Shown here: in pieces, positions 3,305 through 38,142 of the stretch
Numbering within the stretch: position 1 is the first letter of the stretch
Layout: every line of letters begins with the position of its first letter
From: a virus
IMG/VR virus record: IMGVR_UViG_3300009314_000252
Span: 1 to 38,142 of that record
Reading direction: 5' to 3' (one strand)
DNA: 38,142 nt
Translations under genes and position numbers: made by a program
Notes under the pieces: model-generated
The model's input: the letters and a program-made list of their open reading frames with translations, nothing else
What the model was told of the DNA's origin: nothing
The model's database searches: none

Positions 3305-3495
3305 TATTTCCCCCTATCTTCTTTTCTGTTCCGGAGTCGTTCTTCTTCTATACCTGCTTCTATCATATTTTTAAGAGCACCTATACTCTCATCAAAAAAA
3401 CTCTGTAATTCGTTAATATGACTGCGCATTTTTTTATAGCGTCTTACGGATAATCTTTTTAGAAAATTATCTTGTTTTATTTTCTTATCAGCCAC
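3304..3495 (-). CDS. Small charged helical protein, probable GTG start
   Basis: I choose the GTG at 3493-3495 because AGGAGG sits 6 bases upstream; longer starts (ATG at 3513 or 3543) lack such a site. The 63-residue product is rich in Lys, Arg and Glu and predicted helical, with no membrane segment. It overlaps the upstream holin-like gene by 19 bases and touches the DUF1353 gene. Its place in the lysis-like cluster suggests an accessory role, but no homology is recognised. Confidence 0.55.
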   Translation of the reverse strand: MADKKIKQDNFLKRLSVRRYKKMRSHINELQSFFDESIGALKNMIEAGIEEERLRNRKEDRGK

Positions 3496-3716
3496 CAGAA
3501 TCCTCCTATACATCCACCCACCATCATCAAAGTTAGAACCCAATTTATCCTTAGCGATTCACACAACTTAACCATCTTATCTCTAAAGTGTGGTCCGTCT
3601 TTGACGTGTTCATCAATGGGTTTTAGGCGGAGTCTTATCATTTCTTCTTGATGTTTAATATAGGTATCAAGTTTATCACCCAACACTTTGAACGCTTGCT
3701 TTATGTCAGGGTCCAT
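3477..3716 (-). CDS. Holin-like (XhlA-type) small membrane protein
   Basis: The 79-residue protein has a charged helical N-terminal part of about 50 residues and one C-terminal transmembrane segment (WVLTLMMVGGCIGGFWWLI) ended by Arg-Lys. This is the architecture of XhlA/haemolysin-like phage proteins that take part in membrane lesions at lysis. The start overlaps the upstream stop as TAATG. No endolysin was recognised nearby, so the lysis role is an inference from topology and position. Confidence 0.5.
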   Translation of the reverse strand: MDPDIKQAFKVLGDKLDTYIKHQEEMIRLRLKPIDEHVKDGPHFRDKMVKLCESLRINWVLTLMMVGGCIGGFWWLIRK

Positions 3717-4069
3717 TATTCCCCCATTTTTTCTTGTATCAAAGTTCTTAATGCCGGTTTATCTATACTGATCGTAGTCATAAAATCATCAAAGTCTGTA
3801 GTAGATTCATCTTCCGGTGTATTAGGGTTGTCGGGTAAATTTATAAAATTAAGTTCAATACTTTCTGTATGTACAAAATTACCATCTATATATCCCTTGC
3901 GAATAGATATATAAGCTGTTTTGTTTATAAAGTGAATTGTCATAGTATCAGCTTTCACCTTATTAACAGTCGGTCTTACTTCCTCTGGTATGTCAATTTC
4001 ATCTGCGCAGTAACCTATGTTAACCAAAAACAGGCAAGTTAACATAAGTAAACCTATAATCTTTTTCAT
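3716..4069 (-). CDS. Small exported protein
   Basis: The ATG at 4069 has a very strong AAGGAGGAGTT ribosome site, so it is preferred over upstream starts. The 117-residue product has a signal peptide (MKKIIGLLMLTCLFLVNIGY, cleavage probably just before CADE or after it). A Cys lies at the end of the core, but the lipobox is poor. The mature part looks beta-rich and acidic. It follows a stretch holding a strong + strand promoter and dyad sites and lies upstream of the holin-like gene. Function is unknown. Confidence 0.6.
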   Translation of the reverse strand: MKKIIGLLMLTCLFLVNIGYCADEIDIPEEVRPTVNKVKADTMTIHFINKTAYISIRKGYIDGNFVHTESIELNFINLPDNPNTPEDESTTDFDDFMTTISIDKPALRTLIQEKMGE

Positions 4070-35696: not shown

Positions 35697-36013
35697 AGAC
35701 TAAAATGCAATCTACTTCCTTAATAGCATACAAAGATCTTAAAAATACTATAGGCGCTAAACAAAAAACAGTTCTTACTATGTTATTCAATTTAATAAGC
35801 GCTACCAATACCGAACTAGCAGAAGCTCTAAACTGGCCGATTAACTGCGTTACAGGTAGAGTAAACGAACTAGTCAAGCAACACCTCGTAAAAGAACTAG
35901 ACAAAGTAAAGTGTACATCAACAGGACGTACTGTAATAGAGTGGATCCCAACTACCGAAGAAGAATACAAAGCACTTAATAGTAATCAAGGACAGGGAGA
36001 GTTATTCAAATGA
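35693..36013 (+). CDS. Phage winged-helix (MarR-like) protein
   Basis: The ATG at 35693 overlaps the preceding TGA and has GGAGTGGG upstream, giving 106 residues. The sequence has KTVLTMLFNLISATNTELAE, ALNWPINCVTGRVNELVKQH and a C-terminal STGRTVIEWIP, the usual form of small phage winged-helix proteins of the MarR-like class (TNTELA, WPIN-VT-RVNEL). They bind DNA, probably as regulators or replication-linked proteins. The gene overlaps the methyltransferase start. Confidence 0.7.
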   Translation: MKTKMQSTSLIAYKDLKNTIGAKQKTVLTMLFNLISATNTELAEALNWPINCVTGRVNELVKQHLVKELDKVKCTSTGRTVIEWIPTTEEEYKALNSNQGQGELFK

Positions 36014-37515
36014 AAATACTACAAGGCGACGCTTTAACGGTATTAAAGACTTTAGATAGTGAAAGTATAAACTGCTGCGTTACTTCTCCGCCTTATTGGG
36101 CTTTAAGAGATTATGGGACAGCCACTTGGGAAGGAGGAGATCCTAAGTGTAATCATAAAAAAAATCCGAAACCTCTATCAAAAAGAGCTATGGCAAAATC
36201 TACGATAGGTGCTTATGCAGGAACGGGTCATGCTCTTGAAGGGTATAAGGAAATTTGTGGCAAATGCGGTGCTAAACGAGTAGATCAACAACTCGGCCTT
36301 GAACCTACATTCCAAGAGTATATCAGTAAGCTCTGCGATATATTTGACGAAGTAAAACGGGTGCTACGGAAAGACGGAACTATATGGGTTAATCTCGGGG
36401 ATACTTATTCTGGTTCAGGCGTAGGACAAAAAGATACAGGCAAAGCAGTTTATAATGAAAGCGATTTTAGGAAAAGACCCACAAAGACTAATTTATTTGA
36501 TAAATGTTTAATCCAAATCCCCCAACGTTTCTCAATAGAAATGTGTAATCGTAGGGGTTTTAAGATTAAAAATGGACTGGATAGGGCGTGGCTTGCAGGA
36601 ATTGTTGAAGGCGAGGGATGTATCCACATACACAAACGAGAAAAAGGAAGGTTGAATGCATCTTATTCACCATTGCTATCGATTCATAATGCCAATGAAC
36701 GAATGATAACAAGGGTTAAGGAATTGGTGGGGTGTGGGAATATACAGACAACTCATAAAGACAGAAACCTCAAACTATTTAGATTTAATTCTGTATCAGA
36801 TGACGCAAGGATGATACTGCGAGAAGTTTATCCTCATCTTATTACAAAAAGAGACCAAGCGAGATGTGCTTTGTATTGCCCGACTAATGGAAAAGATGCT
36901 GATGAAGCGTGGCAAAATATAAAAAGAATGCACCACCTTGAACCAGCCACAAGAAATTATCCAGAACCTAAAGTGGGTGGTATAGACCCGTGGATTTTAA
37001 GAAATACGATTATATGGAAAAAGCCCAACTGTATGCCTTCGAGTATTGAAGATAGGTTTACTGTGGACTTTGAGTATGTGTTCTTTTTCGTAAAGAGTAA
37101 AAAATATTGGTTTGAAACGCAATACGAAAAGTTGCAAGGAGATCCTAAAGATAAAGAAAGACAACGAAGAACCGGAAGCCCAAATCAAAAATACGCAACA
37201 ATTCACGGTAATAAACCATCGAGCGGTGGTGTAGGGTATAGTAAGCAAGGTCGTAACAAACGCTGTGTATGGAAGATAACCACTAAACCTTTTAAGCAAG
37301 CACATTTCGCAGTATTTCCAGAGGAACTCATAGAAACACCTATCAAAGCCGGCTGCCCTAAAGGTGGGGTAGTGCTTGATCCTTTTTCCGGCTCCGGTAC
37401 AACAGGTGTTGTAGCAAAGAAACAGAATAAAGATTTTATCGGAATAGAGCTTAATCCGGAGTATATTAAAATGGCAGAGAAGCGAATTGCTAATACAATG
37501 GGAAGTTTATTTTGA
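36010..37515 (+). CDS. Cytosine-N4-type DNA methyltransferase with LAGLIDADG insert
   Basis: The 501-residue protein is a beta-type methyltransferase: TSPPYWALRDYG near residue 25, then the S-adenosylmethionine motif VLDPFSGSGTTGVV at about 456-470. TSPPYW suggests N4-cytosine methylation. Two CxxC pairs (about 49-85, CNHKK and ICGKCGAK) are present. Between IEMCNRRG and WILRNTIIWKKP (residues 184-327) lies a LAGLIDADG endonuclease domain (WLAGIVEGEGCIHIHK). In relatives these flanks join directly. The gene overlaps the previous stop. It is likely a phage self-modification enzyme. Whether it is active with the insert is uncertain. Confidence 0.85.
   Translation: MKILQGDALTVLKTLDSESINCCVTSPPYWALRDYGTATWEGGDPKCNHKKNPKPLSKRAMAKSTIGAYAGTGHALEGYKEICGKCGAKRVDQQLGLEPTFQEYISKLCDIFDEVKRVLRKDGTIWVNLGDTYSGSGVGQKDTGKAVYNESDFRKRPTKTNLFDKCLIQIPQRFSIEMCNRRGFKIKNGLDRAWLAGIVEGEGCIHIHKREKGRLNASYSPLLSIHNANERMITRVKELVGCGNIQTTHKDRNLKLFRFNSVSDDARMILREVYPHLITKRDQARCALYCPTNGKDADEAWQNIKRMHHLEPATRNYPEPKVGGIDPWILRNTIIWKKPNCMPSSIEDRFTVDFEYVFFFVKSKKYWFETQYEKLQGDPKDKERQRRTGSPNQKYATIHGNKPSSGGVGYSKQGRNKRCVWKITTKPFKQAHFAVFPEELIETPIKAGCPKGGVVLDPFSGSGTTGVVAKKQNKDFIGIELNPEYIKMAEKRIANTMGSLF
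36559..36990 (+). mobile_element. LAGLIDADG homing endonuclease domain inserted in frame
   Basis: Residues 184-327 of the methyltransferase form a 144-residue insert with one LAGLIDADG motif (WLAGIVEGEGC) and a C-terminal helical part. A single motif implies action as a dimer. No intein splice motifs are clear: there is no block A Cys/Ser with its usual context, and no terminal HN. There is also too little non-coding room for a group I intron. So an in-frame invasion at a loop of the methyltransferase is preferred. Confidence 0.65.
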
Positions 37516-37528
37516 AAAAGGAGAAATA

Positions 37529-37675
37529 ATGAAAAAAGAACTTAAGACTGCAGCTAAGATCAAGAAAGACTACACATGGCCAGCCTTCTCAATGTTTATA
37601 CGAACTAGAGATTGCCTAAGAACTACCGGCTGTGCTTCGTTTGGACTCTGTATAACGTGTGGAAAAAGGTATTGA
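37529..37675 (+). pseudogene. N-terminal fragment of a NinG-like protein
   Basis: From ATG 37529 (AAAGGAGAAATA upstream) 48 residues read like the start of lambda NinG/Rap-type proteins: TWPAFSMFIRTRDCLRTTG, then GLCITCGKRY. NinG proteins continue after this zinc pair with a GH-containing nuclease part, but a TGA stops the frame here. A second NinG-like frame begins one base later with its own N-terminal part. So the fragment may be exon one of an interrupted gene or a degraded copy. Confidence 0.6.
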
Positions 37676-37676
37676 C

Positions 37677-38142
37677 ATGACACATGGACTAAAAGGATTC
37701 CAAAAAGGTGACCTAAATCCTTCAAGAGATCCTAAAAGAAGAAAAGCAATAAGCGAATGGAGAAAAAAACAAATATTATCAGAAACTACAAAAAAAAGAA
37801 TTAGTCATAGTATGAAAAAAAGATTGCAAGAACCAGCACTGAGAAAAAAATGGAGCTCAAAACAAATGGGTGTAAAACTAAGTAAAAAAACTAAGAGAAA
37901 AATCCTGGAAGTAAAGTTCAAAAAACCTAAGTCTATAAAAAGGTTAAAGCAAATGGCAGATTCAGTATTTAGTATATATATAAGAAAAAAATATGCTGAC
38001 AGAAATGGATATGTTCGTTGCGTAACATGTGGTAGAGTATATTTTTGGAAAGAATTACATAATGGTCATTATGTTTCTCGTATATATAACTCGTTACGAT
38101 ATGATGAAAGAAATTGTCACCCACAGTGTGTAGGGTGTAATG
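37677..38142 (+). CDS. NUMOD3-like / NinG-HNH-type nuclease (3' end outside window)
   Basis: The ATG at 37677 lies one base after the TGA of the NinG fragment, and the frame is open to the window end (155 residues). Residues of about 1-100 are basic repeats with KKRISHSMKKRL and QMGVKLSKKTKRKI, like NUMOD3 DNA-binding motifs of homing endonucleases. Then comes a NinG-like nuclease core: VFSIYIRKKYADRNGYVRCV, TCGRVYFWKELHNGHYVSR and CHPQCVGCN, with four Cys and a GH. This is either a whole NinG variant or a homing endonuclease derived from NinG. The end is not seen. Confidence 0.6.
   Translation, partial: MTHGLKGFQKGDLNPSRDPKRRKAISEWRKKQILSETTKKRISHSMKKRLQEPALRKKWSSKQMGVKLSKKTKRKILEVKFKKPKSIKRLKQMADSVFSIYIRKKYADRNGYVRCVTCGRVYFWKELHNGHYVSRIYNSLRYDERNCHPQCVGCN

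Follow-up and report, generated by a model that had tools for sequence, protein, structure and literature searches.

The window analysed here is the complete record of a linear virus contig, 38,142 bp long, and the features under study occupy its last 614 bp. Two open reading frames lie there on the same strand: ORF1, the 5' part of a ninG gene, and ORF2, which encodes a NinG-type nuclease and inside which the record ends. The features are as follows (coordinates, strand and description).

37529..37675, + strand: ORF1, ninG 5' fragment of 48 codons plus TGA (37673-37675), last residues LCITCGKRY
37665..37669, + strand: AAAGG, putative SD-like motif within the ninG fragment, 7 nt 5' of the ORF2 ATG
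37673..37677, + strand: junction (TGA-C-ATG), with the TGA, one base and the start of the ORF2 ATG in a different frame
37677..38142, + strand: ORF2, NinG-type nuclease gene, 155 aa visible, open at the contig end; Pfam NinG, PHROG NinG/Rap
37677..37931, + strand: N-terminal extension of ORF2 (residues 1-85), basic and helical, presumed to bind DNA
37932..38141, + strand: NinG/HNH catalytic core of ORF2 (residues 86-155), with conserved Cys, His, Arg, Glu and Asn retained

ORF1 was compared with the N-termini of ten intact NinG proteins from other phage contigs and was 43-76% identical to them (76% for the closest intact relative). In the intact relatives the frame runs on past the GHF motif and the second CxxC to the C-terminus; after KRY they read HIKLLQAGHF, where the window frame has a stop. 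Homology to intact ninG ended at the codon for Y51 (L004 numbering), the TGA being the next three bases, and the ORF1 frame was undamaged up to the break. Only the first CxxC of the NinG Cys pairs is present in ORF1, which alone gave no Pfam match. An earlier reading of this DNA, made from the sequence only, had described a ninG start fragment ending in CITCGKRY, a new frame one base later and a cut at the Cys-x2-Cys hairpin. Both ORFs were present as described, and the break was located directly after LCITCGKRY, where the intact relatives carry on. Among other viral contigs, none was found with codons for C[IV]TCGKRY followed immediately by a stop. The idea that the record is circular and that ninG resumes at its start was rejected, bases 1-214 having no NinG C-terminus in the frames read. 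A TTGACA hexamer is present at the junction (37672-37677), with no -10 box. The TGA-C-ATG spacing suggests that translation of ORF2 is coupled to that of the ninG fragment.

ORF2 matched the Pfam NinG family (PF05766) with 43.3 bits, above the cut-off of 25.4, and gave two NinG/Rap matches in PHROGs, including phrog_5034 at E 1.9e-17. The zinc/HNH residues C115, C118, H131, N146, C151 and C154 were retained in the visible part. In the AlphaFold model, residues 81-155 had block means of 92-98 pLDDT and the N-terminal part was helical, with lower certainty. Comparison of the structure with the PDB returned mostly HNH nucleases as best matches, at middling Z of 5-6; with Foldseek no PDB match was obtained at E<=0.001 and the HNH matches were again middling, and the sequence of ORF2 had no match in the PDB. 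Since ORF2 lies in a different frame and restarts with a NinG core of its own, ORF1 and ORF2 are not one gene. Nor does the nuclease appear to derive from the gene that it interrupts: a tree built from 59 NinG cores placed ORF2 well away from the ORF1-type clade, nearest to the NinG proteins of L082 and L003. The GC content of ORF2 was 30.7%, while ORF1 had 40% and the overall value was 38%; a value as low as that of ORF2 was reached in just 0.3% of equal-sized windows.

The sequence-only reading had also seen NUMOD3-like repeats ahead of a second NinG core. The core was confirmed by the Pfam match above; significant NUMOD3 similarity was not, the N-terminal part scoring 8.3 and 6.6 bits against NUMOD3 (PF07460), below the cut-off of 20.4. 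In PHROGs, a match to the homing endonuclease family phrog_314 (E 0.003) backs the NUMOD3 likeness weakly. The ORF2 N-terminus gave nothing significant when searched against phage records. A search of viral and species genomes for close homologues of ORF2 gave either ordinary NinG cores or nothing, and no second gene of the ORF2 type was found. A search with the ORF2 clade found no members with the N-terminal extension, and the extension was also absent where NinG loci have a long open frame at the N-terminus (L058, L076, L052, L074 and L043). Among the papers searched, no relevant one connecting NinG to NUMOD3, inteins or homing endonucleases was found. An intein at the window junction was rejected on account of the stop codon and frame change there.

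An empty site was found in L004, where a methyltransferase gene is followed by ninG, as in the window, and both genes are uninterrupted. A profile of the ninG N-terminus matched 68 viral and 4 species-genome loci; 64 of these matches were read, plus ten earlier loci, partly on the same contigs. In nearly all of the loci read, ninG was intact. Two were broken. In L132/L025 the ninG frame stops after LCITCG and one further residue, and in L139/L026 the homology stops after LCISC; both breaks fall at residue 47-48, compared with 51 in the window, and lie within four codons of it. By a rough estimate, the chance of two coincidences within four codons of a 145-codon gene is ~0.4%, and the position of the window break is therefore beyond chance. 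In both loci the break is followed by a nuclease ORF of 174-175 aa (Pfam HNH_3; 63% mutual identity) and then by a complete ninG, which overlaps the end of the nuclease ORF. The two elements are as follows.

L025, 2699-3876: ninG 5' fragment, HNH_3 nuclease gene, complete and apparently chimeric ninG
L026, 3269-4420: ninG 5' fragment, HNH_3 nuclease gene, complete and apparently chimeric ninG

Since the breaks in ninG recur at the same place and nuclease genes are found there, homing is supported. The terminases of the window phage and the L026 phage are 45-47% identical, and the two phages also have a NinB-like match, which is weak. The insert of L025 starts with a consensus sigma-70 promoter, TTGACA-18-TATAAT (hexamer at 2896), and the equivalent place in L026 carries TTGGCA-17-TATAAT (hexamer at about 3441). 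A TTGACA-like hexamer is thus found at the ninG/insert junction in the window, L025 and L026, as part of a strong promoter in the latter two. The HNH_3 family of L025 and L026 also occurs away from ninG, which it adjoins in only three contigs among the 80 closest loci. In L008, a relative of this nuclease (3475-4011) is located directly 3' of an intact ninG.

The ninG genes that follow the nucleases in L025 and L026 were compared in halves. The displaced fragment of L025 was 63% identical to the ORF1-type group, equal to the identity of the members among themselves (63%), whereas the full ninG of L025 reached only 53% in its N-half and 73% in its C-half. By their N-halves, L025, L026 and L151, a locus that has no nuclease, formed one clade (aLRT 88). 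For the C-halves the same clade was rejected (AU p 0.040); there L026 grouped with L011 (99/100) and L025 lay among the ORF1-type genes. For the N-half of L025, a position inside the ORF1-type group was disfavoured, not rejected (AU p 0.074). As judged from these comparisons, the two ninG genes are apparently chimeric. At the break site, the N-half common to L025, L026 and L151 reads LPDYGxC..C...VPR, in place of LCITCGKRYH, and with this change it could be resistant to cutting. The likely target is CITCGKRYH, and the likely resistant version is CITCxKxVPR. L025 and L026 are candidates for homing elements in phages that resemble the WHO elements of yeast (see below). Of such an element, the window shows at the same site the displaced 5' end of ninG and the nuclease gene, which are its first two parts, but the nuclease is of a different type.

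Other insertions and losses were recorded in ninG and in the neighbouring gene. Intein-like LAGLIDADG insertions of 285 aa were found at the second Cys pair of Bacteroides-type ninG genes in L038 (1920-3251; MT840030.1) and in L189 (from 2501). In L183 (2232-2449) a deletion that sets in near the first Cys has removed the catalytic core of ninG, and a C-terminal remnant persists in another frame; this could represent a break repaired by deletion. The methyltransferase gene adjoining ninG in the window (36010-37515) carries an in-frame LAGLIDADG insertion of ~144 residues (36559-36990), located just 5' of the conserved WILRN motif. An N-terminal intein splicing domain was not recognised in this insertion, which was absent from the homologues in L004, Drs3 and MW202482; among 234 phage records that encode a related methyltransferase, not one matched more than 80% of it in one place. 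With the insertions in the methyltransferase gene and in ninG, two neighbouring genes appear to carry nucleases of different classes.

Taken with the intact relatives, the nucleases at the same spot and the foreign composition of ORF2, the data uphold the earlier view that ninG is interrupted by a NinG-type nuclease, with homing the likely cause. ORF2 is probably a free-standing homing-type nuclease with a NinG-type core, in either a simple split or a WHO-like arrangement. It would have invaded ninG at a target in the DNA for the conserved CxxC/His active-site hairpin. The basic N-terminal part is predicted to recognise the ninG site and the C-terminal NinG/HNH domain to cut it; repair from a phage carrying the insert would then copy the nuclease gene into the break, and translation of ORF2 would be coupled to that of the ninG fragment. 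After ORF2 we expect, with about equal likelihood, either the 3' half of ninG, as in the split of nrdA by MobE, or a replacement ninG whose site is altered, as in WHO elements; a full replacement ninG was considered as the alternative to a simple split because the elements of L025 and L026 suggest it. For a simple split, the 5' part of the host gene should be intact up to the insert, and ORF1 is conserved through KRY. For a WHO-like element, a displaced fragment should adjoin the nuclease gene, and one does so in the window, L025 and L026. A more far-reaching proposal is that ORF2 founds a family of NinG/Rap-based homing endonucleases and also acts as a WHO-like element of phages, which cuts the active-site codons of ninG, brings a resistant ninG part and leaves the old 5' end behind. 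On this proposal, the recombination gene ninG would be attacked repeatedly by nucleases, one of them from its own family. We regard this as possible but, as a whole, on the unlikely side.

The strongest rival to a homing nuclease is gene replacement without homing, by which ORF2 would be the current NinG of the phage, acquired from another phage through recombination, and ORF1 a decaying remnant of the old one. It would account for the catalytic NinG residues conserved in ORF2 and for the grouping of its core among ordinary NinG proteins, but not for an N-terminal extension absent from the other NinG loci read, for a break at the site of other nuclease insertions or for an ORF1 frame still intact to that break; we consider it rather improbable. 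Misassembly, with sequence of another phage joined to ninG at the contig end, is very improbable: the junction is 466 bp from the end and base composition changes sharply there (a misjoin could explain the low GC of ORF2), but the ATG at the join follows the stop by one base and an SD-like motif by 7 nt, the join falls within four codons of the breaks in two other contigs, and no common sequence is present there to account for it. Group I introns prefer an upstream exon that ends in T. An intron of this type, with its homing nuclease starting at the 5' splice site, is hardly credible: the upstream part does end in T and the core could be located past the contig end, but no Rfam group I/II intron match was obtained in the visible part of the insert, which the contig end cuts off, so that the intron raised in the sequence-only reading was not borne out, and the four bases between the last ninG codon and the ORF2 start leave no space for a 5' structure outside the ORF.

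The ninG loci of L025 and L026 suggest that the active-site codons of ninG are a recurrent homing target. On the preferred reading, that ORF2 is a homing-type nuclease, ORF2 would be another junction resolvase turned homing enzyme, after Endo VII/F-CphI. The replacement-exon (WHO) class was described in yeast, and comparable mobile ORFs in the mitochondria of fungi; L025 and L026 are candidate phage cases, and phages permit easy crosses for such loci. Because both a likely target and a likely resistant form of the site can be named, the idea of homing is directly testable.

Free-standing HNH homing nucleases lie inside phage genes that they split, MobE in Aeh1 nrdA and MobA in T4 gene 60, and the nrdA split by MobE still encodes a functional enzyme (PMC2988022). 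Like these, the nuclease gene of the window lies inside a functionally critical phage gene, and, as with T4 mobE, the ORF2 start codon adjoins the upstream stop; unlike them, its core is of the NinG type and the visible host gene is the 5' part. F-CphI is a phage homing endonuclease with a C-terminal Endo VII resolvase motif and proven cleavage (PMC6083498). In ORF2, too, the junction-nuclease domain is C-terminal and preceded by a different part, in a phage homing context, but its motif is that of NinG, not Endo VII, and its cleavage is a prediction.

The WHO elements found at FBA1 in yeast bring along a resistant version; one end of their host gene is replaced, and the old end is displaced (PMC7282813). 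L025 and L026 resemble them in the nuclease gene, the host gene of two lineages with an altered site and the displaced host fragment, and the window in the displaced fragment and the nuclease gene. In the phage loci, however, the 5' end of the host gene is displaced, whereas WHO elements displace the 3' end, and the nucleases are of the HNH or NinG type, against LAGLIDADG in yeast. In fungal mitochondria, mobile ORFs with duplicated C-termini were described in atp6, atp9, cox2 and nad3 (PMC3630166); there too the nuclease ORF moves together with a piece that replaces part of the host gene, but the C-terminus is what is replaced, by LAGLIDADG or GIY-YIG nucleases. Finally, lambda Rap, the NinG protein of that phage, cuts both Holliday junctions and D-loops (PMC2082072). 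ORF1 resembles it in its N-terminus and ORF2 in its core with the catalytic residues, but ORF2 differs in having ~85 extra basic N-terminal residues and in being located inside another NinG gene.
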